From Lactobacillus gasseri ATCC 33323 = JCM 1131 (GTDB lineage: Bacteria > Bacillota > Bacilli > Lactobacillales > Lactobacillaceae), in the NCBI RefSeq assembly GCF_000014425.1, contig NC_008530.1, positions 682,001-746,000 on the forward strand: 64,000 bases of DNA. Direction: 5' to 3'. The notes beneath the pieces are model-generated. The model ran no database searches, was not told where the DNA came from, and saw only the letters and a program-made list of their open reading frames with translations. How positions within the stretch are numbered: position 1 is the first letter of the stretch; each line of letters opens with the position of its first letter. This document shows positions 4,373-62,678 of the stretch, one piece after another. The position numbers and the translations under genes were made by a program.

Positions 4373-5206
4373 ATGCGCAAAAATGAAAACGAGTTAGTAG
4401 CTAAAATCATTGATGATCCTGTATTCAGCTGGGTGATGGAACAAGATGATAATTGTTGCAAATTATTGCAAGCAATTTTACCAGAGCTGAATATTACTCG
4501 AGTCGAATTTGAAACGCAAAAGAGATTAAAGTTTCATCCAGAAAAACGGGGAACGATTCTAGATATTTTAGCTTATGATCAAAAAGGACGAGTCTATGAT
4601 ATTGAACTACAGGTATTACAGAATAAGTTTCTTGCTCAACGAATTCGATATTATTTTTCAATGATTGATCAGAATTTGTTGATGAGTGGTGGTAAGTATC
4701 GAGATTTACCAGAGACTTATGTGATTTTTATTTTGCCAAATGATCCATATGATCAAGATGAAAAATACTATGAATTTGCTTTTCAGCAGTTGAAACGAAA
4801 AAATCCATTGGTGCTTGATACTAAGCAACACGCAATTATCTTAAATGCGAGTGGGAGTATCGGTGAGGTTACACCGCGTCTACAAGGCTTTTTTGACTTG
4901 ATTCATGATAAAATAAGTACAAAAGATGAGTTTATTGAAAAATTGAATCGAGAAGTTAAAAAGTTCGGTACTGATCCGGGAAGGAGAAAAGAACTTATGG
5001 ATTATCAGATGAGATTAGATGATGAAAGAGAATTTGGTAAGGAACTAGGTCGAGAACAAGAAGAGATTAATGCAATTCAGAAGTTAATAAAAATTACCCG
5101 ACAATTAAAAGCAAGCGATGACTTTATCTTGAAGCAATTAATTGCTAATTATGGCGATGATTTTTCGAAAGAAGAGTTGCAAGAATTTATTAAAAAGAAT
5201 AAATAA
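4373..5206 (+). CDS. Rpn-family PD-(D/E)XK nuclease-like protein
   Basis: A 277-residue protein of the Rpn/PDDEXK family transposase-like group (PF12784 type), known in E. coli as recombination-promoting nucleases. The active-site pattern is visible: D64 in TILDILAYD and E78-x-Q80 in YDIELQV. R90 and the RYY following are also characteristic. The C-terminal region from about 200 is charged and helical, with DEREFGKELGREQEE. The start ATG has AAAGGGAAA upstream. It stands alone between two terminators. Such genes occur in many near copies in lactobacilli. The role in vivo (DNA cleavage, recombination or defence) cannot be told from the sequence. Confidence 0.85.
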   Translation: MRKNENELVAKIIDDPVFSWVMEQDDNCCKLLQAILPELNITRVEFETQKRLKFHPEKRGTILDILAYDQKGRVYDIELQVLQNKFLAQRIRYYFSMIDQNLLMSGGKYRDLPETYVIFILPNDPYDQDEKYYEFAFQQLKRKNPLVLDTKQHAIILNASGSIGEVTPRLQGFFDLIHDKISTKDEFIEKLNREVKKFGTDPGRRKELMDYQMRLDDEREFGKELGREQEEINAIQKLIKITRQLKASDDFILKQLIANYGDDFSKEELQEFIKKNK

Positions 5207-5317: not shown

Positions 5318-5332
5318 TATAAGGATTAAATG

Positions 5333-6292
5333 ATGATTGAATACAAAAATATTTCGAAGAAATATCAGGATCAAACGATTCTAAAGGATGTTTCTTTTAC
5401 AGTGAAAAAAGGAGATATCTTCGTTTTAGTTGGACCTAGTGGCAGTGGCAAGACTACGCTGTTAAAAATGTTCAATAGACTGATTGAACCGACCAAAGGC
5501 GAGATATTGTTAGATGATAAATCAATAAAGGAATATGATCTACGTAAATTAAGAGAAAAAACTGGTTACGTTTTGCAGACTGCCAGTTTGTTTCCAAATT
5601 TGACTGTTGGTGAAAATATCACAATTGTTCTAGAGCAAGAAGGCGTTAGTCGAACAGAACGTCGTAAGAGGCAGAAAGAATTATTAAAGTCAGTTGACCT
5701 AGATCCCAAATTATATTGTGATCGGATGCCAAATGAACTTTCAGGTGGCGAGCAACAAAGAGTAGGAATTATTCGTGCCCTAGCTGCAAATCCTGAGGTA
5801 GTTCTAATGGATGAGCCTTTTTCCGCTCTTGATCCAGTAGTGAGAAAACAATTACAAGACTTACTACTTAATCTTCATGATGAGCTTAATAAAACGGTGA
5901 TATTTGTAACGCACGACATGCAAGAAGCAATTCGATTAGGAAACACAATTGGTGTCTTGCATGAAGGTATTTTAGAGCAAGTTGGTAAACCCAGAGAAAT
6001 TTTACGTCATCCTGCAACTAAGTTTGTTCGAGAATTTTTTGCCGGAAATCGAATTAATCAAAAATTGGACCTGGAAACACTGCTCAAAAGTGAGTTAGGA
6101 GTAGATCCTAGATTTTATCCAAAGGTAGATACTTTAGTTCGCTATCATGTTTACAGCGTGCAAGATTTAATCAAGGATTGTTCTAATTATCCTGATAGTC
6201 TATTTATTGCAGAAACAGAGTTTGGTGAATTTCTAATTGAACCAAAACGAGTTTGGAATTTCTTCTTAAAGTGGGTGGCTGGAAATGATTAA
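5333..6292 (+). CDS. Quaternary-amine (glycine betaine/carnitine/choline) ABC transporter ATPase
   Basis: The ATP-hydrolysing subunit of an osmoprotectant importer, related to OpuCA/ProV. Walker A GPSGSGKTT is near residues 34-42, the Q loop near 82, the signature LSGGEQQR near 138-145 and Walker B VVLMDEP near 157. The C-terminal ~80 residues sit where OpuCA has tandem CBS domains, but only a short, poorly matching remnant is visible. Two ATGs (5330 and 5333) are possible; the second has the better distance to AAGGA. It overlaps the permease gene by eight bases, so translation is likely coupled. Confidence 0.88.
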   Translation: MIEYKNISKKYQDQTILKDVSFTVKKGDIFVLVGPSGSGKTTLLKMFNRLIEPTKGEILLDDKSIKEYDLRKLREKTGYVLQTASLFPNLTVGENITIVLEQEGVSRTERRKRQKELLKSVDLDPKLYCDRMPNELSGGEQQRVGIIRALAANPEVVLMDEPFSALDPVVRKQLQDLLLNLHDELNKTVIFVTHDMQEAIRLGNTIGVLHEGILEQVGKPREILRHPATKFVREFFAGNRINQKLDLETLLKSELGVDPRFYPKVDTLVRYHVYSVQDLIKDCSNYPDSLFIAETEFGEFLIEPKRVWNFFLKWVAGND

Positions 6293-7835
6293 ATCTTTAT
6301 GGCAAATGCTTTTAACAGAACACGATCAAATTTGGGCTACGACGCTTGTTCATATTAAAATTTCACTAATTGCTCTCCTTATCGCAATGGTAATTGCAAT
6401 TCCGCTAGCTTTTATTTTAAAGGGACATAAAAAAGTAGCTGAATTCACACTGCAAATTGCTGGTATTATTCAAACTATTCCAAGCTTAGCAATTCTAGGT
6501 TTGTTATTACCTTTTGTCGGAATTGGGACTACACCTGCGATTATTGCCTTAGTTTTATATGCAATAATGCCTATTTTTCAGAATACTTATTCAGGTTTAA
6601 CAGATATTCCTGATAATTTAGAAGAAGCAGCAACTGCCTTTGGTCTGACAAAATGGAAGAAATTACAGCGATTAGAAATCCCAATGGCCATGCCGATGAT
6701 TTTTGCTGGAGTTCGAATTGCTTTAGTAATGATTATTGGTACAGCAACACTTGCAGCCTTAATTGGTGGTGGTGGACTAGGTACTTACATTTATGTCGGC
6801 ATTAATTCAAATAACAATACTGAAGTTTTAATGGGTGCGATTTTATCCGCACTGCTTGCCTTAGTATTTAGTGGCGTTTTAAAATTTATTGCTAAAAATA
6901 ATAAGCGACTCAAGTGGGGAAGTATTATTATCGCTGTAATTTTGCTCATTTGGGGCGGAAGCAGTTTATATACTCACTTCACTAGCACTTCAAAGAATAA
7001 TATTGCTGAACCAAAACAAACAATTACAATTGCCGGGAAAATGGGCTCTGAGCCAGCTATTTTAATTAATATGTATAAAGACCTGATTGAAAAGAATGAT
7101 CCAAATACCAAGGTAGTCTTAAAGCCTAATTTTGGTGGAACAACATTTTTATTTAAGGCTCTTCAGACAGATAAAGTTGATATTTATCCTGAATTCACTG
7201 GAACAGTCTTGCAAACCTTAGTTAAAACAGGTAAAAAGACTGGCAATGATCCAAATCAAGTTTATGTTGAAGCTAGAAGCGATTTAAAGAAACAATTTGA
7301 TATGGAATACTTAAAGCCAATGGCTTATCAAAACGGTTATGCTTTGGCAACAACGCAGAAATTTGCAAAAGACAACCATTTGACTAAAATGAGTGATTTA
7401 AACCGCGTTAATAAAAAAGTTCACGCAGCTTTTGATCCAGACTTTACTTCTTTAAAAGATGGGTATCCTGGATTAAAGAAAATTTATAAGTTGGATTTTG
7501 CATCAATTAAAAGTACTGAATCAAGTATTCGTTATCATGCTATTGCGAATAATCAAGCTAATATTGTTGATGGCTACACTACTGATGCCGAGATTAAAAA
7601 GTATAACTTAGTAATGCTTGATGATGATAAAAAATTCTTCCCACCTTATCAAGGTGCTCCGTTGATGAAGGCAAAATTTGCAGAGAGAAATCCTCAAATT
7701 GTAAAAGCATTAAACAAACTAGCTGGTAAAATTACAACTCAAGAAATGCAGGAAATGAATTATCAGGTTAATGTTAAGCACGAAAAGCCAGCTAAAGTGG
7801 CTCATGATTATTTGGTAAAACATGGATTAATTTAG
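6285..7835 (+). CDS. Quaternary-amine ABC transporter permease fused to substrate-binding protein
   Basis: A 516-residue fusion. Residues 1-210 are a BPD-type permease with about five membrane spans and the EAA loop EEAATAFGLTKWKKLQ near 117-132. A further span near 217-230 (IIIAVILLIWGG) links it to an extracytoplasmic OpuAC-type binding domain (about 245-516), beginning TITIAGKMGSEPAILI. The fusion tethers the binding protein to the membrane, as known for OpuA and OpuBC/ChoQ-like systems. Betaine, carnitine and choline are all possible substrates. The ATG lies in the preceding gene's end, and an osmC-like gene follows by 13 bases. Confidence 0.9.
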   Translation: MIKSLWQMLLTEHDQIWATTLVHIKISLIALLIAMVIAIPLAFILKGHKKVAEFTLQIAGIIQTIPSLAILGLLLPFVGIGTTPAIIALVLYAIMPIFQNTYSGLTDIPDNLEEAATAFGLTKWKKLQRLEIPMAMPMIFAGVRIALVMIIGTATLAALIGGGGLGTYIYVGINSNNNTEVLMGAILSALLALVFSGVLKFIAKNNKRLKWGSIIIAVILLIWGGSSLYTHFTSTSKNNIAEPKQTITIAGKMGSEPAILINMYKDLIEKNDPNTKVVLKPNFGGTTFLFKALQTDKVDIYPEFTGTVLQTLVKTGKKTGNDPNQVYVEARSDLKKQFDMEYLKPMAYQNGYALATTQKFAKDNHLTKMSDLNRVNKKVHAAFDPDFTSLKDGYPGLKKIYKLDFASIKSTESSIRYHAIANNQANIVDGYTTDAEIKKYNLVMLDDDKKFFPPYQGAPLMKAKFAERNPQIVKALNKLAGKITTQEMQEMNYQVNVKHEKPAKVAHDYLVKHGLI

Positions 7836-7848
7836 AAAAGAGATAGAA

Positions 7849-8259
7849 ATGACAAAGTATACAGTAAAAAGCAAGCTAACTGATACTCCTTGGCAAATTG
7901 AAAATAGAACCAAGAAGCATAAATTTATGGCTGATGAATCAGCAAGCGGCAAAAATGTTGCTCCTAATCCAGTAGAGTATTTAGCTGGTGCAGTAAATTC
8001 TTGTATTTCGATTTCTGCAGGAATGATTGCTAACGTTCATCATTTAGATGTAAAAAACTTCAAAGTTACAACACAAGCAATTACTACTAAGTTAGGACAT
8101 GGGAAGTCAGTTGTCAGTGAAATGTTAATTACAGTTTCTTTTGACAGCTCCATGTCTCAAGAAGAAAAGCAGGACTTTTTAGCACATACCCTGCATGTTT
8201 CAACTGTTTATCAAACAGTATCTCAAAGTGTTAAAACTTATGTAGAATTGGAAGATTAA
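7849..8259 (+). CDS. OsmC-like protein lacking the second cysteine
   Basis: A 136-residue member of the OsmC/Ohr superfamily, which reduces organic hydroperoxides with two cysteines. Here C52 in NSCISIS is the usual first cysteine. At the place of the second (the CP motif) the protein reads HVSTVYQT, with S118 where the cysteine should be. This suggests loss or change of peroxidase chemistry, or a one-cysteine mechanism. It follows the osmoprotectant transporter by 13 bases with AGAGATAG before the ATG, and a terminator follows, so the three genes probably form one operon. Confidence 0.85.
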   Translation: MTKYTVKSKLTDTPWQIENRTKKHKFMADESASGKNVAPNPVEYLAGAVNSCISISAGMIANVHHLDVKNFKVTTQAITTKLGHGKSVVSEMLITVSFDSSMSQEEKQDFLAHTLHVSTVYQTVSQSVKTYVELED

Positions 8260-8265
8260 TTTATA

Positions 8266-8300
8266 AAATACTCTTAGTTACTCGGACTAAGAGTATTTTT
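8266..8300 (+). terminator. Terminator after the osmC-like gene
   Basis: AAATACTCTTAGT pairs with ACTAAGAGTATTT around a short loop, followed by T-rich sequence. Confidence 0.85.
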
Positions 8301-8359
8301 GCTTTTTTTAGGAAAGATAGGGCAAGATATAGATTAATTAAGTTTTAGGGGGATTTAAG

Positions 8360-9096
8360 TTGAAAAAAATAATTGCTAAACTAGTTGGAATGTTTGAATT
8401 ATTCTATGATCTAGTTTTTGTCTATGCAATTTCTAGCATTACAGCAATGATTCATCATCCTGTCAATGGTAGCATTCCTTTAATTACATTTTTGCAGTTC
8501 TTATTAGTTGTCATTGTAGTAATGCAAATTTAGCTTTACCAAGTTATTTATTTTAATCGCTATAGTAAAAATAGTTTCTGGGATCTTAGCGGCCTAGTTT
8601 TAAATATGTTTGTTGCAGTGTATTTAGCTAATAATATCAATACTGAATGGCGAATTACATTTCATTATTTTAATATCGCAATGGCAGTGATGATCGTAAC
8701 GCTATTTTGTCAGATAAGTTAATTAATCATCATCAAATTAGTAAGGGCTTTGTATTAATGTACAGTCATATTGCCATTGTAGTTTCTATTTTGTTAATGA
8801 CAGTATCTTTCCTTTATTTACAAATAAAAAATGTAAATAGATCATTCTTATTTTTCTTAATCATTGGCTCACTAGGTTTGTACTACTTTTCTTTAAGTAT
8901 TAATCAAATATATAACAAAAATAAGTGCAAATTTGCTATTCGTGATTTTCTGGTATTAATAATTACCTTTTCGTTGGGAATAGTTTATTTATGGTTTGTA
9001 ATAAGATCTGAATTAGGTATTGCAATCTGCTTGTTAATTTGGAACTTGGCATTTTTCTTAATTTTTCTAATGAAAAGCAAGAATTCTTTAAATTAG
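8360..9096 (+). pseudogene. Broken low-temperature-requirement A (LtrA)-like membrane protein gene
   Basis: Starting at TTG 8360 behind AGGGGGA, the frame reads MKKIIAKLVGMFELFYDLVF, a clear LtrA-family opening (ELFYDLVFVYAIS). It meets TAG at 8531-8533, where the family has a conserved tryptophan before LYQVIYFNRY, then continues open to TAA at 8720-8722. From about 8700 the rest of the membrane protein continues in the next frame to the stop at 9094-9096, so there is also a frameshift between roughly 8670 and 8722. The parts together would be about 245 residues. The last fragment (TTG 8707 onward, 129 codons) alone has no good ribosome-binding site. LtrA proteins are polytopic and of unknown biochemical role. 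Confidence 0.8.
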
Positions 9097-9163
9097 TGTA
9101 AGTATGATTATTAAAAAATTGTTGACTGCTATAATATTAGTAAATCAATAAAGAAGGTTTAAT

Positions 9164-9775
9164 ATGGACATTTATGGTGGCTATACCCCAGTTCTAAATA
9201 AATTACTTAATCAGATGCTGGAATATTTTAGAAAAGAAAATAAAATTCACCAAGAACAAACCGGTGACAGTCTTTATGAACATTTAATTGGTCGAGTTAA
9301 GAGACCAGAAAGCATGATTGAAAAATGTCAGCGAAAAGAATTACCAGTAACTCCAGAATCAGCAATGAAAAAAATTCGAGACAGCGTTGGAATTCGGGTT
9401 GTCTGTAATTTCATTGATGATATTTATACTTGTATTAATTTGATTCAAAATTGGGATGATGTAGCAATTGTTAAACAAAAAGACTACATTACTAATGCTA
9501 AGCCTAATGGTTACCGTTCTTATCATATGATTTTAGATGTTGAAAGACCTGAAAAAGATATTGAAGGTAATATTCCTGGTCACTACTATGTTGAAGTGCA
9601 ACTTAGAACGATTGCAATGGACACTTGGGCAAGTTTAGAGCATGAAATGAAGTATAAGCATAAAATAAAGAATCCTGAAATGATTGGTAAAGAGCTAAAG
9701 CGAGTGGCAGATGAATTAGCTTCTTGCGATGTAAGCATGCAGACTTTGCGTCATTTGATTAGAGAGGAAGACTAA
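9164..9775 (+). CDS. relP: Small alarmone synthetase, RelP-like
   Basis: A 203-residue GTP pyrophosphokinase with only the RelA/SpoT synthetase domain, no hydrolase domain. Diagnostic motifs are YEHLIGRVKRPESM near 38-51, VGIRVVCNFIDDIY near 75-88, KPNGYRSYHM near 112-121 and VEVQLRTIAMDTWASLEHE near 142-160. The KPNGYRS and AMDxWASLEH forms resemble RelP (YwaC) more than RelQ. Such enzymes make (p)ppGpp from GTP/GDP and ATP under envelope or oxidative stress. Five bases separate it from a response regulator and histidine kinase, matching the relP-relRS organisation of streptococci. Spacing suggests one operon. AGAAGG precedes the ATG. Confidence 0.85.
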   Translation: MDIYGGYTPVLNKLLNQMLEYFRKENKIHQEQTGDSLYEHLIGRVKRPESMIEKCQRKELPVTPESAMKKIRDSVGIRVVCNFIDDIYTCINLIQNWDDVAIVKQKDYITNAKPNGYRSYHMILDVERPEKDIEGNIPGHYYVEVQLRTIAMDTWASLEHEMKYKHKIKNPEMIGKELKRVADELASCDVSMQTLRHLIREED

Positions 9776-9779
9776 CTTA

Positions 9780-10445
9780 ATGAAAATTTTACTGGCAGAA
9801 GATGAAGAGCAACTGTCCCGTGTTTTGGTAGCGGCGATGCAAAGCGTTAATTACGATGTCGACGCTGTTTTTAATGGCCGGGATGCTGTAGAACTTGCTA
9901 AAAAGAATTCATATGATGTTATTATCCTAGATATCATGATGCCGATTATGGATGGAATCACCGCCTTGAAACAAATTCGAAAAAGCGGCGATAAGACTTA
10001 TGTATTAATGCTTACTGCAAAAGCAGAAATTGATGATCGTGTAACTGGTTTAGATAGTGGAGCAGATGATTACTTAACTAAGCCTTTTTCATTAAAAGAG
10101 TTACTCGCTCGTTTACGGTCAAAGGAAAGACGGGATGATCAATATACTCCTAATGAAGTTGAAGTTGGTGATCTGGCCTTGAATGTATCTGAGCAAGAGC
10201 TAGTAAGTCATAATTCAATTCGCTTAGGAAGTAAAGAAACGCAACTTTTAAACTATCTGATGCTCAATGAAGGTAAAGAGTTTTCAACTTCAGACTTATT
10301 AGCGCATGTTTGGAAAGATGAAGACGATGCTAATGAAGAGGTAGTTTGGATTTATATTTCCTATTTAAGACAAAAACTCCAATCTATTCAAAGCTCAGTC
10401 CAGATTGTAGGTGAAAAGGGCGGTAGTTTTTCATTAATTAGGTAG
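9780..10445 (+). CDS. OmpR-family response regulator
   Basis: A 221-residue two-domain regulator. The receiver domain has the acidic pair E7/D8, the phosphorylation site D51 in VIILDIMMP, T79 in MLTAKAE and K101 in YLTKPF. A winged-helix DNA-binding domain fills residues 125-221, ending with VGEKGGSFSLIR; in many relatives this place reads RGxGY. Its histidine kinase follows immediately and the RelP-like synthetase lies five bases before. It probably controls its own operon, but I found no clear repeat to name as a binding site. Confidence 0.92.
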   Translation: MKILLAEDEEQLSRVLVAAMQSVNYDVDAVFNGRDAVELAKKNSYDVIILDIMMPIMDGITALKQIRKSGDKTYVLMLTAKAEIDDRVTGLDSGADDYLTKPFSLKELLARLRSKERRDDQYTPNEVEVGDLALNVSEQELVSHNSIRLGSKETQLLNYLMLNEGKEFSTSDLLAHVWKDEDDANEEVVWIYISYLRQKLQSIQSSVQIVGEKGGSFSLIR

Positions 10446-10454
10446 GTGAGATTA

Positions 10455-11729
10455 ATGATTCAAAAATTTCGCTGGAAGTTTATTGGAATGTCGATTACGG
10501 CTTTGTTTATTGTTTTAGTGATTACATTAGGTACATTACTTGGGATTAGCTATACTCAGAGCCATAATGAAGTGGACCGAGTATTGACAACCTTAGTCAA
10601 TAATCAAGGTCAATTAACGCCACGTAACGCTAAACCAGTTTTTGGTAATCAAAAAGATCCAATTAATAAAAATTTTTTAGCTGGTGAATATAATCCAGAA
10701 GCTATTTTTCAATATCGCTATTTTACGGTTGCAAGTACCAAGAATAATACACCAAAAATAATAAATGATGATAATGTGTATGATGTAGCGCGAAAGCAAA
10801 TTATTGGTACAAGCAAACAGGTTTTTAAGGATAAAGTAACTAGTGGCTCAGTCAATATCGGCAGTAATCAGTATGCTTATCGAGTAGGTAAGGATTCAAA
10901 AGGTAATCAATTTATTGTCTATTTGAACGAATCCCTAATCTATCATCGATTTTCCCTTTTATTTAGAGTTTCAATTTTACTGGGATTAATTGCTTTAATT
11001 GTTTTTGCCCTAATCTTAATCTTGGTATCAAAAAAGGCAATTGGTCCGATAATTACTACTTATCATAAACAACGTGAATTTATTACTAATGCGGGGCATG
11101 AATTAAAGACACCTTTAGCAATTATTTCAGCCAATACTGAAATGGAAGAAATGCTAGGGAATAATTCAGAATGGAATAAGAGTACAAAAGAGCAAGTTGA
11201 TCGCTTAACTAGGTTGATTAACAGATTAATTGCTTTGGCAAGAACCGGTGAAACTGGAGAAGTCGTTTTAAATAAAGTTAACTTTTCTGAAATTGTTAAA
11301 AAGAATGTTACTAGTTTTAAGTCTGTAATGCAGAAGAATGACTTGAAATATAATGCGATGATTATGCCAGATTTATATGTAAAAGCCGAAAGGAATATTT
11401 TGAGTGAATTGACTAATATTTTATTAGATAATGCACGTAAATATTGTGATCGAGATGGTGAAGTTAGGGTAAGTTTGACTAAGGGAAAGCTTGGCACTAA
11501 TGCAATTTTACGAGTAGCTAACACTTATAAAGAAGGCAAAGGGAAGGACTATTCTCACTTCTTTGAAAGATTTTATCGTGAAGATGAGTCTCATAATTCA
11601 AAGAAGTCTGGCTTTGGTATTGGTTTAGCCATGGCTCAAGAGATTGTACAAACCTTCCATGGTAAAATTCATGTTAGTCATAAAGATGACATGATCGTGT
11701 TCACGGTAATTTTAAAATTAGCAAAATAA
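10455..11729 (+). CDS. Sensor histidine kinase
   Basis: A membrane sensor of 424 residues. One membrane span is near residues 10-33 and a second near 168-192, enclosing an extracytoplasmic domain of about 135 residues with no domain I recognise. Unlike many relatives there is no clear HAMP signature before the dimerisation box NAGHELKTPLAI, with H215 as the phosphate acceptor. The N box is LLDNARKYC and the G box GFGIGLAMA. I chose ATG 10455, with GGTGAG upstream; a GTG at 10446 would add three residues and would abut the regulator's stop. It is the partner of the preceding response regulator. Confidence 0.9.
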   Translation: MIQKFRWKFIGMSITALFIVLVITLGTLLGISYTQSHNEVDRVLTTLVNNQGQLTPRNAKPVFGNQKDPINKNFLAGEYNPEAIFQYRYFTVASTKNNTPKIINDDNVYDVARKQIIGTSKQVFKDKVTSGSVNIGSNQYAYRVGKDSKGNQFIVYLNESLIYHRFSLLFRVSILLGLIALIVFALILILVSKKAIGPIITTYHKQREFITNAGHELKTPLAIISANTEMEEMLGNNSEWNKSTKEQVDRLTRLINRLIALARTGETGEVVLNKVNFSEIVKKNVTSFKSVMQKNDLKYNAMIMPDLYVKAERNILSELTNILLDNARKYCDRDGEVRVSLTKGKLGTNAILRVANTYKEGKGKDYSHFFERFYREDESHNSKKSGFGIGLAMAQEIVQTFHGKIHVSHKDDMIVFTVILKLAK

Positions 11730-11766
11730 AAGCAGTTAGTTTTCAATTTTGAAGACTAGCTGCTTT
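11730..11766. terminator. Bidirectional terminator between the histidine kinase gene and pepX
   Basis: AAAGCAGTTAGTTTTC pairs with GAAGACTAGCTGCTTT. The U-rich tail is better on the minus strand (GCTTTTATTTT), so it mainly serves pepX. Confidence 0.75.
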
Positions 11767-11787
11767 CTGCATATACTGTTTTTTTAT

Positions 11788-14172
11788 TTACATTTCATGA
11801 AAAGTCAATTGAGTCTTATCTAAGTCAATTGTATAAGTCTCATCTTCAAGTGGACGTTTAGTCATCCCTTGATCGGTTGAATAGATAATCAAGCCTAATC
11901 TTGCACCAGCTGGTAAGCGATAGAAGGTAGGTTGCAATTCGAATTCTAAGTCATAGAATTTACCTGCTTCAATCTTTTCTGCGTGTTTCATATCAGCATA
12001 GTTTTGGACATTCATATGAGCCTTAGTGATCAACTTAGCCTTTGTTTCTTTATCAGGAACAAATTCTTTCATTACTTCTGTACCAAAGCGATAGCCTAAT
12101 TCTTGGATTTGATCATTGAATGATTTAGGAACAGGGGTCAGACGTTTTCTTGATCCTAAATCAACTAAGGCTACTGAAATCTGTCCCTTCGGAAGAGAGC
12201 TAGCAACACTAATTTTAATCTTAGGACGGCCAACTAAAGTTACAGTATGAATGAACTCATCAGTTACAAAGCGTAATTGTTGGTCAAGCCACTTTTCTTC
12301 ACCAGAGATAAAGTCATATTGCCATTTGCTTTCGGAAATTTTAGCTTCTTTGAAGACTTTACCACCTTGATCTGTGAACGAAAGTTTATCATTATCTTCG
12401 CCACCATCTTTTAAGAGATTACCTTTTTTATCAGGGAAGTAAATTTCTTTTCTACCTAATTCATTGTTCCAAGTTGGTTCTTCATGCCATACATCTGGTT
12501 GTAAGTTATCTTGGATCATAACATCTTCCCATTGCTTGTAGGCATTATTCTTGATGCCTAATAATTCATGACAGAACCATAAGTTCATTAAGTCTGAGAA
12601 GTCAATTGAAAGTAAGTTATTCATGTTGTAGTGCGGACCCTGGTGCAAGAATAATTTATGAGCAATTGGTAATTTAGATACCTTTTGCCAAACTTTATAA
12701 ACATTCTTTGGCTTAACGTTCCAGTCATTTAAACCGTGAACTGAGATCCAAGAGCATTTAATATTGTCGGTGTGGTGGCGGTAATTTCTAGCTTCCCAGA
12801 AATCAGAATATTGACCAGTTTCACGATCTGATTTTTCTAAAAGACGTTTTTGCATAGCATCAAACTTCGGCTTAATCTTGAGATAGTCGCCTGCATCCCA
12901 AAGGTTAGACTGACAAGTTTCAGCAAGCATATCTAAATCTTCGCCTTGGCAAGCTTCTGGAGCAATAACTAATCCATGTTCACGATAGTAATCATACCAA
13001 GAAGAAATGGCGGCTTCTGAAACGACAGTTTTAAGACCGGCTACACCAGTAGTGGCGATAGCAATTTGAAGTGTACCTAAGTATGAACGACCAGTCATTC
13101 CAATATTGCCATTGCACCAAGAAGCTTTTGTTTCGTGCTTTCTCGTACGGTCAGTATAAGCAATTCTGTCGCCATGAAGCCATTCGATAATTTCTTTAGC
13201 AGATTCAGTTTCTTCAGGTGCTCCCGTAATTCTTAAACCATCTGAACCACGAGTCCCGATTGCGCCTGCGTAAACATTTGCAAATCCACGTGCAAGCAAG
13301 TATTCATTTAAAGAGTAGGCAGCTTTATGAACTGCTTCTTCAGTTGCTGCTTGATCTTCGCTAGCTGGCTTTTTAGCCTTAGCGGTCGGCATTGCTTCAT
13401 ATTTAGGGTAAGTACTCTTAGTAGCATCTTCTAAGTTAACATCTACATTGTGGTTACGTTTTTCATTAGCAATGATCCCACCAAAGTAAGGATCAGCAGT
13501 GTAGAGTGCAGGAAACTTAAAGTTATTTGATTGGTATGGGCGAAAGACTGTTACTTGCAATAAATCAGGTTTACCGTCTTCATCAGTATCAAGATCACTT
13601 TCAACGTAAACAACTTCACGAATAACCTTACTCATGTCAAAAACAGGTAATGATTTACCATTAAAGTACATAAATTTATTGTTACCGTAGAATTGTGTGA
13701 AATAGCCCTTGCCCGCCATATTATCAATGAAAGTTTGACCATTTTTGGTACGAGTATTAAGAAGACGATAGAAGACCTTAATTAATTCATCACGGTCAAT
13801 CTTTTCTTGGTCAGTATAAGGAAGAGCATTTGCCTTCATGCGAACTAGGGGATCTTTTAAATCATAGTCATATCCTACATGATAGCCAAGCAGTTGTAAG
13901 GCAATATTATAGAAACTATTGCGTGAAATTGAGGCTGGATTTTTAGCTAAAAAATCTTTTAGATTTTCATTTGCGCTAACTGCAAACTCTGCAAGTTTAG
14001 CTTCTTTTGCACCATAAGTTTTTGCTTCCGCAATTGAATTTTCGACTAAAGTAGCTAAAAGATCAGAAAAGCTGTTTTCTTTCCAATTACCAGGTAAGAA
14101 ATTGATGGATTCTAATTCTTTAACCATTTGGTCAAAATCAGTTTGAAGATAACCATATTGATTGTATTTCAT
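11788..14172 (-). CDS. pepX: Xaa-Pro dipeptidyl-peptidase
   Basis: A cytoplasmic serine peptidase (family S15) that releases X-Pro dipeptides from peptides, important for using proline-rich casein fragments. The 794-residue length is typical of lactobacilli. The catalytic triad is visible: S363 in [10 protein letters not shown]483 in GLNDWNVK and H514 in HQGPHYNMN. The N-terminal helical domain, alpha/beta-hydrolase core and C-terminal beta domain are all present. The gene stands alone between terminators. GGGAG lies on its own strand before the ATG. Confidence 0.96.
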
Positions 14173-21822: not shown

Positions 21823-21895
21823 ATTAAATGTTTTTGATCGAAAATATGAGTATTTGATTTAAAATAAGGATAGTTAATAATTAATGAGGATAATT

Positions 21896-22315
21896 ATGCT
21901 ATCAAAAATATCAATTTTACTTACAAATCACCAACTTACATTAAAAGATATTTCTCAAAATCAGCACTTGGCAGAACAAGATTTAAAAAAAGAACTTAAT
22001 GAAAATCCTGATAATTGGTCAAGCTCAGTTTTATCAGCTTTGTCGTCATCTTTGAACATGCGGCCTGGAGACTTATTAGAATTACTTGATCCAGTTTATT
22101 CTTTGAAGATTAATGATCATCATCAAATGATTCAAGGAATCTATATTGAAGATCCTGAAGTTTATGAACAAATTCGCTTTGTGGTAGAAAGTGAGCATTT
22201 AGAAGGTTGGCAACCTGACGAAGAGGATATTTTAAGATTGCTTGATGAAGCAATTAATCCATCTCCTAAGTTCCAAACTGAAATAAGTCGGATTTGGGGT
22301 GAGAAAGATGAGTGA
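21896..22315 (+). CDS. Fic-associated antitoxin with VbhA-like C-terminal domain
   Basis: A 139-residue acidic protein. The N-terminal half (about 1-65) looks helical, with an HTH-like segment around LSSSLNMRPGDLLEL, as in XRE-type regulators. The C-terminal part (about 95-135) reads SEHLEGWQPDEEDILRLLDE. S99-xxx-E103-G104 matches the class I Fic-inhibitory motif [S/T]xxxE[G/N], and the following P-x-E-E spacing is also like VbhA/FicA antitoxins. The fic gene overlaps its stop by eight bases. It is therefore probably the antitoxin, inserting the glutamate into the Fic active site, and may also repress the operon. ATG 21896 is chosen for GAGGATAATT upstream; ATG 21884 would add four residues. 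Confidence 0.7.
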   Translation: MLSKISILLTNHQLTLKDISQNQHLAEQDLKKELNENPDNWSSSVLSALSSSLNMRPGDLLELLDPVYSLKINDHHQMIQGIYIEDPEVYEQIRFVVESEHLEGWQPDEEDILRLLDEAINPSPKFQTEISRIWGEKDE

Positions 22316-22898
22316 GGAGCCAAAAGATACAGAATGGTATCGCAGAAAGTTTCTTTATCCTAATGGAACGCTTAAAAATAAACTCAATATTAAGGATGCG
22401 GCAGAATTAGCGCAAAAAGAATACTTAGGTTCAGCTGTGCGCGCATTAGCTTTTTTGAGGAAGAATAAAAAGATTACTAGCGTTGAAGATTTGAAGAAAA
22501 TTCATAAGATTATGTTTGGCTGGCTTTATGATTGGGCAGGACAAATTCGAGATTATGAGTTGATTAAGGGAGATACTGAGTTTCTAGAATATACTCGGAT
22601 TAAGTTTGGGATCGAAGAAATAGATGAGAAAATGAGACAATTAGCGAGTCGAAAAGAAATTGCTAATACTGATTATGCTTTTTTGCTTGATCGTTTGAAT
22701 TATCTTCATCCCTTTAGAGAAGGAAATGGTAGGAGTAGCAAGTTGTTTTTACAAGCTTTTGCTGCGAATCACGGACAAGTTATTGATTATCCGCGATCAA
22801 ATAAAGAATTAATTATTGCTCAAAATAATGCAGATATTAACCAAATTGCTAAGTTAATTAAGATTAAGCCAAAAGCTAAGAAAATGAATGCTAGATAA
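22308..22898 (+). CDS. Fic-domain protein (AMP-transferase-type toxin)
   Basis: A 196-residue single-domain Fic protein, the size of FicT/VbhT-core toxins. The active-site loop is HPFREGNGRSSK at residues 134-145. H134 is the catalytic base, E138 holds the metal, and R142 binds phosphate; the last arginine of HxFx(D/E)GNGRxxR is K here. No [S/T]xxxE[G/N] motif is visible inside the protein, consistent with inhibition in trans by the preceding protein. ATG 22308 overlaps the upstream stop and has GGGGTGAG before it. Known relatives AMPylate targets such as DNA gyrase and topoisomerase IV; the target here is unknown. Confidence 0.9.
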   Translation: MSEEPKDTEWYRRKFLYPNGTLKNKLNIKDAAELAQKEYLGSAVRALAFLRKNKKITSVEDLKKIHKIMFGWLYDWAGQIRDYELIKGDTEFLEYTRIKFGIEEIDEKMRQLASRKEIANTDYAFLLDRLNYLHPFREGNGRSSKLFLQAFAANHGQVIDYPRSNKELIIAQNNADINQIAKLIKIKPKAKKMNAR

Positions 22899-27795: not shown

Positions 27796-29550
27796 TTATT
27801 TAGTAAAGCCCGCTTCATACCAAACATTAGCAGAAGGTTTTAATGACCAACCAGAGACTTTACTATTTACAGCTGTTACTGAATAGGCACCACTAGTTGG
27901 GACTACATACGCTTTGTTGTACATCCATTTTTGCCATTCATGAAATTTTTGCACCCGATATTTTTTATCAAAAGATTTGGCAGAATCGATTTCATTCAAT
28001 AATTTAGTGTTTGTCGGAGAAACAAAACGGGCAAAATTATAAGGCATTTTTTCACCATAAAAGACGCTTGGAGAAGGATCACCTGCTGCGCCCCAAGCTC
28101 CTTCAAGAACATCAATCTTAGGATCACTGGCTTTAACAGCTGCTACCCAGCGATTAAATTCCATTGGCCGCCCGCCTAGGAACTTAACGTTTAAGCCGGC
28201 TTTTTTCCATTGTTGAATGTAGTTACGCCAGATAGCTTCGCTATTTTCACCAGAACCACGTACTGCTAGATTGATAACTAATGGTTTACCATTTGGCTGA
28301 CTTCGATAGAGTGCACCAGGAGCTTTTTTATAGCCCGCTTTATCTAGTAGTTTATTGGCTTTATCTAGATTATAAGAATAGACAGGAATATTTTTATCAT
28401 AATATGGAGTAAATTGTGAAGGAATCAAAGAATTAATCCTGAATTCTAAACCATGGTAGAAACGTTTATTAATGACATCAACATTCATTGCATAAGCCAT
28501 TGCTTTTCGTAAAGCAGGATTATTCATCTTAGCATGAGGATTTTCAACGTTTTTACCAAGTTTTGCATCCCATTTTCCGACCTTAAAGGCTAAGTAGTCG
28601 TAACTAAGTGTTTTTTTGCCGACAAAATTGACGCCTTTAGTATTTTTTACCTGTTCCCATTGCGAGCTAAGAACATTTGCAACGTCGAATTTTTTGCTCT
28701 TAATTGCTTGTGAAACATTAGAATTAGTAATATTTGACATGTAAATATGTTCAAAATTAGGTTTACCGCGCCAGTAATATGGATTTCTTGACCAACTAGT
28801 AGATTGGCCTTGTACAGTTTTGTCCATTTTATATGGACCAAAGTAGAGTGGGTGCTTTCTTATTTGCGGACTAGAAACAAGTTTTTCAAAGGGAACGCTT
28901 TTCAAATAATGGTAAGGAGCAGCATGTTCCCAGAAAAAACCATTAGCTGAGTTCATCATTGCTGGTTTTAATTCCTTAAAGTGAAGAATTAATGTTTTTC
29001 CATTTGGTCCGTCTGGCATTTCAAGACCTGAAATATTGTTGGCTTTTCCCCGATGGTATTCAGCCATTCCCTTAATATTTTCAAGCGAAGAAGTATATTG
29101 AGTAGTTTGAACTTTAGGATTAGCTAAAATTTCGTATGCATACTCTAAATCCTTGGCTGTTACTGGTTTTCCATCAGACCAACGAACCTTCTTTTTTACT
29201 TTGATTTCAGCAGTATTGTTACTATGATTTAACTTTAAACTAGCAGCACCCTTATTGGTAAATTGATAATGATCATTAATATCAAAAAGCGCTTCATCTC
29301 CTGGAGCAGCTGCTTCAGAATCGGGACTAGTATCAGCAATTTCAGCTGAAAAAATTCCAGTAAATGGTGATTCATTTTCTAAAGCATAGGTTAAGGTTCC
29401 TCCCTTTTTAATGGGTTTATGGGGAACAGCCTGAGAAAACTTGATGGGTTGATTACTCGAATCAGTTTTCTTAGCACCACAAGCAGTTGATAAAATCGCT
29501 AGTGAGCTCGCTAGTGTTACATACAGCAGTTTGGACTTTGACATCTTCAT
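27796..29550 (-). CDS. Oligopeptide ABC transporter substrate-binding lipoprotein (OppA family)
   Basis: A 584-residue SBP family 5 protein. The N-terminus MKMSKSKLLYVTLASSLAIL ends at STAC with C24 as the probable lipidation site; the -3 residue is S rather than the usual L. The binding-protein body contains VRWSDGKPVTAKDLEYAYE, typical for peptide-binding proteins. ATG 29550 is chosen for AAAGGAG eight bases upstream, over TTG 29571. No permease or ATPase genes adjoin, so it probably feeds a complete Opp system elsewhere. Its expression is governed by a T-box leader, linking it to amino-acid starvation. Confidence 0.9.
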   Translation of the reverse strand: MKMSKSKLLYVTLASSLAILSTACGAKKTDSSNQPIKFSQAVPHKPIKKGGTLTYALENESPFTGIFSAEIADTSPDSEAAAPGDEALFDINDHYQFTNKGAASLKLNHSNNTAEIKVKKKVRWSDGKPVTAKDLEYAYEILANPKVQTTQYTSSLENIKGMAEYHRGKANNISGLEMPDGPNGKTLILHFKELKPAMMNSANGFFWEHAAPYHYLKSVPFEKLVSSPQIRKHPLYFGPYKMDKTVQGQSTSWSRNPYYWRGKPNFEHIYMSNITNSNVSQAIKSKKFDVANVLSSQWEQVKNTKGVNFVGKKTLSYDYLAFKVGKWDAKLGKNVENPHAKMNNPALRKAMAYAMNVDVINKRFYHGLEFRINSLIPSQFTPYYDKNIPVYSYNLDKANKLLDKAGYKKAPGALYRSQPNGKPLVINLAVRGSGENSEAIWRNYIQQWKKAGLNVKFLGGRPMEFNRWVAAVKASDPKIDVLEGAWGAAGDPSPSVFYGEKMPYNFARFVSPTNTKLLNEIDSAKSFDKKYRVQKFHEWQKWMYNKAYVVPTSGAYSVTAVNSKVSGWSLKPSANVWYEAGFTK

Positions 29551-29598
29551 ATAAAATTCTCCTTTCGTCAAAAATCCAATAACAGCATGATTAAGAAA

Positions 29599-29644
29599 AC
29601 AAAAAGACGCCCTATCAGATCACAATGATCTAATAGGGCGTCTT
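29599..29644 (-). terminator. T-box leader terminator
   Basis: On the minus strand the long arms AAGACGCCCTATTAGATCA and TGATCTGATAGGGCGTCTT pair around TTG and are followed by a T run. This is the regulated terminator of the T-box leader. Confidence 0.9.
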
Positions 29645-29880
29645 GTCGCTGTACCACCTATTTTTACTAGAAAAACTAGTCTTTAATAACGTACGGTTCA
29701 ATACAAGAGATCGCTATAAAGGGCTGTCCCTTAAACTACTTTAAATCGTAGTTTACGCTCAAAGGTGATTTTCATTAAGACTCTATCTATTTCTTCACAC
29801 CAACCAGAAATTCTCTGAGAGACGAGCACTTAATTACTTTTCCTTATCAAAGCTGTTTGATAATAATGTTTGTGCTCATA
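29599..29880 (-). ncRNA. T-box riboswitch leader of the oppA-like gene
   Basis: Reading the minus strand, the conserved T-box AGGTGGTACAGCG lies at 29659-29647 just before a strong terminator. Upstream are the Stem I landmarks AAAAGTAATTAAG (near 29840) and the distal CAGAGA...CTGGTTGGTGTGAAG (29816-29794). The likely specifier region is AATGAAAATCACCTTTGAG (29775-29757). By the usual GAA-n-NNN-ACC layout the codon is ATC (29769-29767), Ile; ATG (Met) and AAT (Asn) just upstream are alternatives. The UGGU bulge predicts a tRNA with discriminator A. Uncharged tRNA would stabilise the antiterminator and switch on the gene. Confidence 0.88.
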
Positions 29881-53473: not shown

Positions 53474-54088
53474 ATGGCACATCAAGGTTTATTATTAGTT
53501 CTATCTGGTCCTTCAGGTGTTGGTAAGGGGACCGTTAAAAGTGCAATGGTTAAGCAAAAAGCTTTTTCATTTGAATATTCTGTTTCAATGACGACTCGTA
53601 AGCCTCGTCCAGGTGAAGTTGATGGCAAGGATTACTATTTTGTTTCGGAAGATCGTTTTCAAGAGGCAATTAAAGATAACGAACTTTTGGAATATAATGA
53701 ATATGTAGGTAATCACTACGGCACTCCTCTTGCACCTGTTCAAAAGATGCTTAAAGAGGGCAAAGATGTTTTACTTGAAATTGATGTTAATGGAGCAAAA
53801 CAAGTGCGTAAGTTGATGCCAGATGGTGTTTTTATCTTTTTAACACCACCAGATTTGCACGAATTAAAGCATCGAATTGTTAACCGCGGAACCGATTCCG
53901 ACAAGGTAATTGCGATGAGAATGAAGCAGGCACGTAAAGAGATCTTAATGATGGAAGATTATGATTATGCTGTAGTTAATGATACTGTTGCTAATGTGGT
54001 TGATCATATTAAATCTATTGTTGAAGCAGAACACGTGCGTGTACCGCGAGTAATTAATGATTATAGAAATATGGTTAAGGAGGATTAA
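53474..54088 (+). CDS. gmk: Guanylate kinase
   Basis: A 204-residue kinase converting GMP to GDP. The P-loop GPSGVGKGT is at residues 11-19, SVSMTTRKPRPGEVDGKDY near 37-55 binds GMP, and DYDYAVVND near 155-163 closes the fold. GAGCAAAA lies before the ATG; TATAAT at 53454-53459 is a likely -10 with a weak -35. It precedes rpoZ with three bases between, the usual order. (p)ppGpp is known to inhibit this enzyme in Firmicutes, relevant to the RelP gene in this window. Confidence 0.96.
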   Translation: MAHQGLLLVLSGPSGVGKGTVKSAMVKQKAFSFEYSVSMTTRKPRPGEVDGKDYYFVSEDRFQEAIKDNELLEYNEYVGNHYGTPLAPVQKMLKEGKDVLLEIDVNGAKQVRKLMPDGVFIFLTPPDLHELKHRIVNRGTDSDKVIAMRMKQARKEILMMEDYDYAVVNDTVANVVDHIKSIVEAEHVRVPRVINDYRNMVKED

Positions 54089-59796: not shown

Positions 59797-61785
59797 ATGG
59801 AAAAGGGCCATTTACTTGGTGGTCGCTATAAAATCATTTCTGTTCTAGGCGAAGGTGGAATGGCTAATGTTTATTTAGCTGAGGACATAATTTTGCAAAG
59901 AAAAGTTGCTGTGAAAGTATTACGGCTTAATTTGCAAAAAGATCCTCAAACTATTCAACGCTTTCAAAGAGAAGCACTTTCAACTAGTGAATTAAGTCAT
60001 CCTCATATTGTTTCTATTCTTGATGTAGGAACGGAAGGAGATTGCCATTATTTGGTAATGGATTATGTTGATGGACCTGATTTAGAGGAATACATTCAAC
60101 GCAATAATCCAATTCCTTTGCCTAAAGTGATTAATATCATGGATCAAATCTTGAGTGCTGTAGCTTTAGCACATAAACACAATGTGATCCATCGCGATCT
60201 AAAACCACAAAATATTTTAATGGATAAAAAGGGTAATATTAAGATTGTTGATTTTGGTATTGCAATTGCACTAAATCAAAGTACCATGACGCAAACTAAT
60301 ACTGCTATGGGATCAGTACATTATATGTCTCCTGAACAAGCACGCGGCAGTATGGCTACAAAACAATCTGATATCTATTCTTTGGGAATCATTTTATATA
60401 AGTTATTGACTGGAACAGTCCCTTTTACGGGAGAAAATGCGGTTGCAGTTGCCTTGAAACATTTTCAAGAAAAAACACCGTCTTTAAGAGCTAAAAATCC
60501 TTCAATTCCTCAGGCACTAGAAAACGTTGTTTTTAAAGCTACCGCTAAAGATCCGAGAGATCGATATAAAACTGTTTTAGATATGAAAGAAGATCTAGAT
60601 ACTTGTTTGGATCCCAAGCGTAAGAATGAGCCGGTCTATAAGCCTCAACACGACCCCGCAGCTGATGAAACTATCGTTATTCCTCCGTTAGAAGGAAGCG
60701 TCCATAATAAGGATCATGAAGTACAGGAAAAGTCAGAGCCAAAAGAAGAAAAAAAGAATTTCTTAGATAACCTAAAAGGCCATAAGTGGTGGTGGATAGG
60801 TGCTTTAATTGCATTTTGCGTGATTATGGTAATTCTCTTTTTTGCTCTTGGTAGAAAAGATATGGTAGATATTCCTAATCTTAATAAGATGACCCAAACA
60901 GAAGCTAAAAACACTTTGAATTCTTCAGGTTTAGAACTTGGAAAAATTAGCTATGAATATTCTGATACTGTGCCTAAAGGAAAAGTGATTAGAACTAAGC
61001 CTCCAATTGGTTCGCAAATAAAAGATGGGCAAAAAGTAAATCTAATTATTTCTAAGGGCCCTCATCTTGTCGAGATGCCTAATGTAATTGGTGAATCATA
61101 TACAGTTGCTAAAAAACAATTAGTTAAATTAGGTTTTTCGGTTGCTAAAACTGAAGAATATTCTAGCAGCCCTAAGAATCAAGTTAATGCTCAAGATGTT
61201 GAGCCTGGCCAGCAAATTAATCCTGATAAAGCAACTGTAACTTTGTTAGTTTCTAAAGGACCTTCTTCGGCGAGTAGTACCCGATCTAGAAGACATACAG
61301 TAAAGTTAAGAGATATTGTAGGCTATTCTTTAAAGGGTGCCCAAGATTACGCTCGTGAGAATCATTTAACACTTAAAGTTGAAGAAGAAGATTCAGATGA
61401 TAAGAATGATGGAACTGTCTTACGTCAATCGCCAGAATCGGGTACTGACGTAAGTTCAGGCTCTACCTTGACTGTCGTAGTAGCTAAGTCTAAAAAGGCG
61501 GATGCAAGCAGTAGCTCAAGTAGCTCTACTACAACTACGACGGTTACTAAGTCATACACCATAAATTATCCAGCAGATTCTAGTCAAGCTAACTCGCAAA
61601 AGACGCCTGATCATATTCAAGTTTATGTTTCTGATGATGACCATTCGATTAATAATATTTATCGTGATATGAATATTACTTCTGAGCAAAGTTTTACAGT
61701 TCCTTTTAAATTAACCAAGAAAAATGGACATATAAAAATATTAAGAAATGGCAACACTATTTTAGATGAGGACGTTAATAAGTAA
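59797..61785 (+). CDS. prkC: Ser/Thr protein kinase with PASTA domains
   Basis: A 662-residue membrane kinase (PrkC/StkP). The Hanks kinase domain (about 10-275) has [11 protein letters not shown], the lysine K40 in [16 protein letters not shown] with D134 and DFGIAIA with D152. One span lies at 332-352, followed by three PASTA repeats (about 355-420, 423-490, 500-570) that bind peptidoglycan fragments. A Ser/Thr-rich linker ([11 protein letters not shown]) leads to an extra C-terminal domain (about 590-662) with beta-sandwich-like composition. It senses cell-wall state and phosphorylates cytoplasmic targets; Stp reverses this. Confidence 0.95.
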
Positions 61786-62678
61786 TGAATAAAGCACAGG
61801 GAACTATTGTTAGCGCTATTTCTGGTTATTACGACGTTGAAATTGAGAACGAAGTAGTTAGAACTAGGGCACGTGGAGTTTTTAGAGATCGTAAGCAAAA
61901 GCCATTGGTAGGTGATAGAGTAGTAGTTCAATTAGATAATCAAGGGATGAATTACTTAATAGAAATACTACCTCGAACCAATGAGATTGGACGTCCTGCA
62001 GTTGCCAATGTATCAAAAGTATTATTAGTCATTTCAGCAGTCGAACCAGATTTTTCGCTTGAATTGCTAGATAGATATCTAACCTTTTTTGCTTGGAAAA
62101 ATGTGGGAGTAGTCATTTATTTATCAAAAGCTGATATTACGCCTACTGAAAAATTAAAAGCAATCAAATGTAAGTTAGATTATTATCAAAAAATTGGCTA
62201 TTCTGTTTTTGAAGATGCAGAAGAATTAGAACGTCAATTGCCTACTATGATTCAAAAAGATCAAATTTGGACTTTAGCAGGGCAATCTGGAGCAGGAAAG
62301 TCAACTTTGCTGAATAAGCTGGAAAACGAGGCAAATCAAGAGACAGGTGCAATTTCAACAGCTTTAAACCGTGGTAAGCATACAACAAGACAAGTTAAAC
62401 TTTTTAAATATTCATCTGGGTTTATTGCAGACACTCCTGGATTTTCAGCAATTGACTTATTCAAAATTAAAGTTGATGAACTAGAAAATTATTTTTATGA
62501 TTTAAAAGATGCAAGCGTTAAGTGCAAGTTTAGACGATGCCAGCATATAAAAGAGCCTGGTTGTGAGGTTAAAAAATTGATTGAAGAAGGAAAAATAGCT
62601 AAAAGTCGCTATGATTCCTATTTAAAGATTAGACAGGAAATTTCTGAAAACAGAATGCCTGAGTATTTAAAGAAATAG
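61785..62678 (+). CDS. rsgA: Ribosome small subunit-dependent GTPase A
   Basis: A 297-residue circularly permuted GTPase that helps mature the 30S subunit. An OB fold (about 1-65) is followed by G4 SKAD near 117-120, then G1 [12 protein letters not shown] near 168-179 and G3 DTPGFS near 217-222, the permuted order. The zinc region [14 protein letters not shown] is near 250-263. The ATG shares one base with the prkC stop. (p)ppGpp is a known inhibitor of RsgA. Confidence 0.95.

Follow-up and report, generated by a model that had tools for sequence, protein, structure and literature searches.

A probable relPRS operon in Lactobacillus gasseri joins a small alarmone synthetase to a two-component system

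Why does a gene for a small alarmone synthetase (SAS) lie directly in front of the genes for a two-component system (TCS)? This question is raised by a 64,000-nt stretch of Lactobacillus gasseri ATCC 33323 (NC_008530.1, positions 682,001-746,000), referred to here as the window, in which an SAS gene, relP, is followed by genes for a response regulator (RR), relR, and a histidine kinase (HK), relS. Small synthetases are a route by which Bacillota produce (p)ppGpp under envelope stress, and with enzyme, regulator and sensor side by side, a single operon, a single predicted operator and a single soluble domain would be enough to test which outside cue sets alarmone. The locus is probably a relPRS operon in which the sensor-regulator pair controls the dose of the alarmone synthetase. 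This reading builds on the observed gene content and order, the clade of the enzyme, its catalytic residues, three changed RelQ residues, the predicted sensor fold, the co-inheritance of the trio and the type of promoter. RelS would sense an outside cue through a PDC-like domain and phosphorylate RelR, and RelR would raise relPRS transcription in a positive feedback, possibly by direct action at a box that is seen in relatives and not in the window. An envelope or redox insult could then lead to alarmone independently of the ribosome-bound Rel.

In Streptococcus mutans, relPRS (SMU.926-928) has the order SAS-RR-HK (PMC4963387), and relP is activated by RelRS, which is thought to sense oxidative stressors (PMC7674665; here and below, statements from cited papers follow the portions of their text that were available). 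Streptococcal relPRS is known. In the text it reached, a literature search found no earlier report of its spread beyond streptococci, of the distinct SAS clade, of the signatures in regulator and sensor or of the predicted box, and none of an SAS-TCS operon outside streptococci, with subscription journals poorly covered.

The locus and its recurrence across Bacillota

The locus consists of three genes, the last of which encodes a predicted sensor domain:

9164..9775, + strand: relP, small alarmone synthetase of 203 aa (PF04607, active-site residues, trees)
9780..10445, + strand: relR, OmpR-family response regulator of 221 aa with recognition helix region VVWIYISYLRQKL (Pfam)
10455..11729, + strand: relS, membrane histidine kinase of 424 aa, with an alternative GTG start at 10446 (open reading frame, Pfam)
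10551..10934, + strand: predicted extracytoplasmic PDC-like sensor domain of relS, about residues 33-160 (AlphaFold2, fold matches)

All three genes lie on one strand, with gaps of 4 nt (relP-relR) and 9 nt (relR-relS). A first-pass annotation of the window had described this tight unit of SAS, OmpR-type RR and HK, and its coordinates, families and strand are borne out, apart from a relP-relR distance of five bases that is in fact 4 nt. Pfam assigns relP to RelA_SpoT (PF04607, E 6.2e-33), relR to Response_reg and Trans_reg_C, and relS to HisKA and HATPase_c; the ATG at 10455, with AGGTGAG in front, is a better relS start than the GTG at 10446. Scans of 7500-13500 found no terminator-like site on the + strand in 8300-11729 and no promoter-like site (-35/-10) between relP and relR, in keeping with the undivided operon that the annotation had proposed. 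Promoter-like matches in the scanned interval number 14, against 25.2 in shuffles, and three of them, on the + strand, lie within relR and relS; the scan requires a -35, and an extended -10 at 9127-9135 is hence absent from its listing. The small gaps and the lack of a terminator fit a single relP-relR-relS transcript. The genome has three PF04607 genes, namely the long Rel, a RelQ-type SAS elsewhere and relP. The nearest named relatives among the matches listed, from which records very close to the window may have been omitted, are L. johnsonii and L. taiwanensis, with SAS identities of 90-92%.

The trio is a widely kept unit, and its recurrence is far beyond chance. Of the 80 named loci, which are the best 80 among 131 relatives, 76 have RR and HK genes behind the SAS on its strand, counting one with an interrupted SAS frame (L048), and the SAS-RR gap has a median of 4 nt over 75 loci. 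Among 246 genomes sampled evenly from the order, 18 carry the enzyme at 236.8 bits or more, the next score being 131.6, and all 18 have RR and HK adjacent and the RelS sensor present. In a phylum sample of 199 genomes, three, including the window's own, reach 249 bits, and the rest stay at or below 150. Pairwise distances of SAS, RR and HK correlate at r 0.87-0.88 over 75 loci, although related loci are not independent. The first-pass annotation had seen in the locus a mirror of streptococcal relP-relRS, a likeness that this synteny upholds: gene order is identical to that of S. mutans, and S. sobrinus and S. equinus have their SAS and HK in the window's clades. The surroundings differ, with rcrRPQ, tpx and cipI beside the S. 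mutans operon and transporter genes, osmC and pepX beside that of the window.

relPRS occurs in lactobacilli, streptococci, Acidaminococcaceae, Veillonellaceae and Lachnospiraceae. Ligilactobacillus apodemi falls with the streptococci in the SAS and HK trees, and its RR is about equally near a streptococcal and a Lactobacillus RR; this placement is as expected if relPRS can move as a whole unit.

Some loci are irregular. Two Lactobacillus genomes (L257 in G457, L258 in G459) have a truncated relP, with matches over 136 and 123 residues, and lack a RelS match; relPRS seems to be decaying in such lineages. Interrupted frames in relS of G426 (L173:11072-12300) and in relP of Limosilactobacillus secaliphilus (L048:5998-6612) may reflect sequencing error or decay. 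In a record titled Faecalicatena absiana (L025), relPRS groups inside Lactobacillus, which could mean contamination or transfer.

The synthetase

Phylogenetic analysis places the window enzyme with the streptococcal RelP. In a tree of 134 SAS rows with S. sobrinus and S. equinus as streptococcal anchors, a branch with 100/99 support separates 95 rows (90 labelled TCS, 5 not), among them the window, both anchors and the divergent long rows L087 and L105, from 39 others that include RelQ, YwaC of Bacillus subtilis and RelP of Staphylococcus aureus (SaRelP). RelQ, including the second SAS of the window genome, forms a separate branch with 99-100% bootstrap, and a following RR was scored for none of the 36 SAS on the YwaC/SaRelP side. 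Rooting with the genome's own long Rel was uninformative because the long Rel sits on an end branch of 5.64 changes per column and the tree is star-like at its base. In the unrooted tree without the long Rel, the TCS clade falls on the same side as RelQ, a grouping of weak support (76/35). Topology tests reject neither the TCS clade with YwaC (p-AU 0.117) nor the TCS clade with SaRelP (p-AU 0.106), whereas a grouping of the TCS clade, YwaC and SaRelP that excludes all other SAS is rejected (p-AU 0.0002).

Judged by sequence, the window enzyme is a RelP of the streptococcal type that lies outside YwaC and SaRelP. The first-pass label of a RelP-like, synthetase-only enzyme, for which a phylogeny against RelP and RelQ had been suggested, agrees with the streptococcal clade. 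The name RelP covers both the streptococcal-type clade and the YwaC/SaRelP lineages, which may or may not be one subfamily. YwaC (RelP/SasA) and SaRelP are synthetase-only like the window enzyme, and their genes answer to other TCS, B. subtilis RelP being under WalKR and S. aureus RelP and RelQ under VraRS (PMC10117726); they fall outside the window's 100/99 branch and are not scored as followed by an RR.

Residue comparisons point the same way. Window RelP is identical to S. aureus RelP at all ten positions assigned there to the ATP site, catalysis and the guanosine site (PMC5794853), and the catalytic residues and synthetase domain are shared with RelQ/SasB (YjbM) as well. PMC6793942 lists seven residues of the RelQ pppGpp site, and the comparison covered F42, T44 and N148 of B. 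subtilis RelQ (BsRelQ), the others being K21, K25, R28 and E41. The three correspond to H40, I42 and D153 in window RelP; the window genome's own RelQ retains F and N at the F42 and N148 positions, where YwaC and SaRelP have H and D. Since these tested pppGpp-activation residues are changed, the output of RelP should track the amount of enzyme and would not follow the RelQ allosteric switch. The G-loop position was tried as a further RelP-versus-RelQ marker. The exchange H111P makes BsRelQ act like SaRelP (PMC5794853), and at this position window RelP has A112 and the RelP fragments from B. subtilis and S. aureus have P. The alignment has 85 rows, in which the window appears twice; 62 rows have A here and 5 have P. 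The marker was rejected because the alanine also occurs in the window genome's own RelQ and three of the five P rows are Lachnospiraceae of the window's own clade.

That the window SAS is instead a RelQ-type enzyme, with an incidental TCS pairing, is extremely improbable. The alanine common to the two enzymes, the weakly supported 76/35 grouping, neither shown nor rejected, and the best of four NCBIfam matches, to the YjbM model at 144.7 bits (none of the four reaches its cut-off, which for YjbM is 320), would favour it; both the 99-100% branch that holds RelQ apart, the genome's own second SAS included, and the three differing pppGpp-site residues contradict it, and a RelQ placement is accordingly rejected.

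Sensor kinase and regulator

The RelS sensor is predicted to be PDC-like and to resemble WalK-type domains. Its AlphaFold2 model has a mean pLDDT of 83 and the order H2-49, E89-93, E101-104, H113-126, E130-135, E138-146, E152-158 and H160-199 (H, helix; E, strand), which matches the PDC/Cache pattern of a helix, two strands, a helix and three strands between two membrane helices, with middling fold matches. Foldseek returned nothing at E 0.001 or below for the model, its first match being a WalK model. VIA gave Z 9.6 for a WalK model (WalK-YycH) and Z 8.9 for a YvaQ-McpB model, both integrative models; chemoreceptor, CzcS and LuxQ domains reached Z 7.0-7.5 and the S. aureus YycG/WalK crystal domains Z 6.5-6.6, all middling values. 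The best fold match is thus a WalK model, yet identity is 9-10% and other domains score as well as the WalK crystals. RelS also has a conserved set of its own, comprising R88, Y89, F90, G131 and Y142: over 65 aligned sensor regions, R88 and P198 are invariant, and F9, G52, Y89, F90, G131, Y142 and S192 nearly so.

Sequence searches with the domain were largely negative. No Pfam family matches the window domain at E 0.1, a sensor profile found nothing usable in the PDB, and against Pfam no family matches more than 4 of the 65 members, one of which reaches ArlS_N at 7.5e-4. The description of an unassigned external domain in the first-pass annotation still holds for Pfam families, and the fold can now be predicted as PDC-like over about residues 33-160.

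The same sensor family also occurs apart from relP-type SAS: the 246 genomes contain 12 such further kinases, of which two are additional copies in relPRS genomes. A 98/97 branch in the HK tree splits 78 SAS-linked rows from these 12, with the S. sobrinus and S. equinus kinases on the SAS-linked side. Six of the 12 adjoin VTC and DUF4956 genes. VTC is present in 84 of the 246 genomes, and 7 of 30 sensor matches lie within about 5 kb of it, five of the seven from one family; no VTC match was found in the window genome. DUF4956 and a polyphosphate-polymerase-like gene adjoin Pel polysaccharide genes in streptococci and clostridia (PMC7112168). In the SAS-bearing genome G426 (L173), relPRS is preceded by Cthe_2159, VTC and DUF4956 genes, the latter two at a distance of 0.8-1.5 kb.

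The DNA-binding region of RelR is largely conserved. In the 78 SAS-linked RR compared, the recognition-helix region VWIYISYLRQKL shows W190 in 74, Y192 in 60, Y195 in 74, L196 in 78, R197 in 75 and K199 in 78; the wing G-E-K-G-G has G211 in 77, K213 in 62 and G215 in 71. The SAS-less sister systems, which share the sensor family, differ here as they do in HK clade, with helices of the WVHLSNLRKKL or WVNISSLRKKL kind and an RGxGY-type wing. OmpR-type regulators usually resemble this sister type, with a WVHLSNLRKKL-like helix and an RGxGY wing.

Promoter box, candidate targets and competing explanations

The region upstream of relP holds four further features:

9127..9135, + strand: predicted extended -10 promoter TGCTATAAT of the relP operon (sequence reading, upstream-region counts)
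9150..9157, + strand: ribosome-binding-site-like AAAGAAGG of relP (sequence)
8265..8299, + strand: terminator-like stem-loop 3' of osmC, dividing the upstream genes from the relP region (terminator scan)
7849..8259, + strand: osmC-family gene, a recurrent relPRS neighbour in Lactobacillus (PF02566, neighbourhood)

The promoter type is shared widely. TGnTATAAT with at least 7/8 matches occurs 15-75 nt before the relP start in 54 of 84 regions, against 4.1 expected from resampling, and the -35 is weak, with at most 4/6 matches. Before the extended -10, a direct repeat of period 11 occurs in 25 of 71 regions, compared with 3-8 regions for any other period between 7 and 15. Fitting a motif, with the repeat already noticed by eye as the starting point, gave TTCAAA-N5-TTCAAA, located exactly -23 from TGn in 19 of the 40 best-scoring of the 71 regions; it has a mean score of 4.55, whereas 30 shuffled sets handled alike gave 3.49 (maximum 3.94). 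Because some of the 71 regions are near-identical (e.g. L009/L120, L062/L073), these counts are somewhat inflated. The TTCAnA-N5-TTCAnA repeat reaches Lachnospiraceae and Acidaminococcus, and its presence in relatives fits a direct activation of relP by RelR.

The same box marks possible targets elsewhere. The window genome's htrA-like gene (trypsin plus PDZ) has a full TTCATA-N5-TTCAAA match. An htrA box of at least 10/12 occurs in 15 of 15 RelS-bearing Lactobacillus genomes with a readable promoter (the window included) versus 5 of 12 RelS-less ones, a count that leaves out L219, L236 and L243 (RelS-bearing, unreadable promoter) and G455 (no locus), that includes G472 at a score of 10, which random sequence reaches in 7%, and that uses a pattern written after the promoters had been viewed; the hypergeometric value is about 0.0009 by hand, uncorrected for relatedness. 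Since five RelS-less genomes keep the box, another regulator can own it, and the evidence for the htrA-like gene as a RelR target is suggestive and not RelR-specific. A genome-wide scan of ten genomes with a loose box plus -10 gave mostly noise, with counts near those of a backward-pattern control, and the htrA site was a match common to two genomes. Of five genomes from L. gallinarum and relatives, three carry near-identical one-mismatch TTCAnA repeats upstream of a prsA-like gene for a PPIC-type foldase (L148:1501, L149:1501, L150:1501); these repeats are in reverse orientation and the genomes are close relatives, so that prsA is a lead only.

Gene neighbourhood points to osmC. Within the flanks examined, 16 of the 80 named loci have an OsmC gene near relPRS, and all 16 belong to the genus Lactobacillus. 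Seven of them, from L. johnsonii and relatives, L. colini and L. rodentium, carry it upstream. In L. pasteurii, L. hamsteri and L. gigeriorum it comes directly after relS, starting 10-39 nt past the HK stop, and the other six, from L. gallinarum and relatives, have it 1.2-2.0 kb downstream. In a Pfam tally of 100 of the 145 neighbour proteins, only MFS_1 and OsmC (6 each) had more than three members. In the window, osmC is probably not on the relP transcript because the terminator-like site at 8265-8299 lies between them. A broader proposal would make the relPRS SAS a separate subfamily that co-evolved with a private TCS whose DNA-binding surface is its own and whose PDC sensor family is absent from Pfam, with RelR binding TTCAnA-N5-TTCAnA and coupling alarmone synthesis to quality control of envelope proteins (htrA, possibly prsA) and to OsmC-type detoxification, and with autoregulation gained and lost between species groups; taken as a whole, it is rather unlikely.

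Several results weigh against an operon in which RelRS sets the dose of RelP. Three loci (L079, L081, L082) have an SAS of the window clade and no RR or HK in the DNA examined, which for L081 and L082 extends just 2-3.4 kb downstream of the SAS, and L083 has its HK on the opposite strand. The terminator-like site between osmC and relP counts here too, and the literature search found no expression or biochemical data on Lactobacillus relPRS in the text it reached. RelRS is reported to activate relP in S. mutans, but the box that some relatives have cannot be recognised at window relP, where it scores 0.3 and the best site has 9/12 matches, which is chance level; among the 71 regions, none from Limosilactobacillus or Liquorilactobacillus has a positive-scoring box at -23. 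The missing window box is the main result against direct autoactivation in the window species group.

These results leave some room for another account, somewhat unlikely in our judgement, in which relP of the window species group is expressed at a constant basal rate from its extended -10 and RelRS is merely co-transcribed, RelR acting mainly elsewhere, for example on the htrA-like gene. The recognition helix region is unchanged in this species group, where the relP box is missing and the htrA-like gene has a full one, and the htrA count of 15/15 versus 5/12 agrees; the five RelS-less genomes with the box weaken that support, the retention of the trio across Bacillota is hard to explain without functional coupling, and S. 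mutans relP is reported to be RelRS-activated (PMC7674665). An oxidative cue, with RelRS as a thiol- or peroxide-stress system and osmC as its functional partner, is a tentative option that we lean against: it draws on the 16 OsmC-linked loci, on tpx near relPRS in S. mutans (PMC6563777) and on Ohr-like and thiol peroxidase genes near an SAS-less sister kinase (L171), whereas the OsmC linkage is confined to one genus and, in the window, osmC and relP have a terminator-like site between them.

Other genes of the window bear less directly on relPRS. GMP kinase (53474-54088) and RsgA (61785-62678), which the first-pass annotation had brought in as alarmone targets encoded in the window, are both present, but they were rejected as support because they lie 42-50 kb from relPRS. 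A TTG-start membrane-type small open reading frame without a Pfam match (8707-9096, + strand) lies immediately 5' of relP, and L004 has one of comparable size at the same place, likewise without a match. By eye, a long inverted repeat at 11729-11767 lies between relS and the convergent pepX, absent from the terminator-scan list. Glycine-betaine/choline-type ABC transporter genes (5330-7835, + strand) lie upstream of relP, as they do in the streptococcal-clade genome G335 (L175:7750-9792), and 5' of them is a gene for a PF12784 PD-(D/E)XK nuclease family transposase protein (4373-5206, + strand). Farther away, a gene for an HTH_26 protein overlaps a Fic-family gene (21884-22898, + strand), a toxin-antitoxin-like or regulatory pair, and a T-box leader (RF00230, 123.7 bits, 29631-29859, - strand) lies upstream of a solute-binding-protein gene (SBP_bac_5, 27796-29571, - strand).

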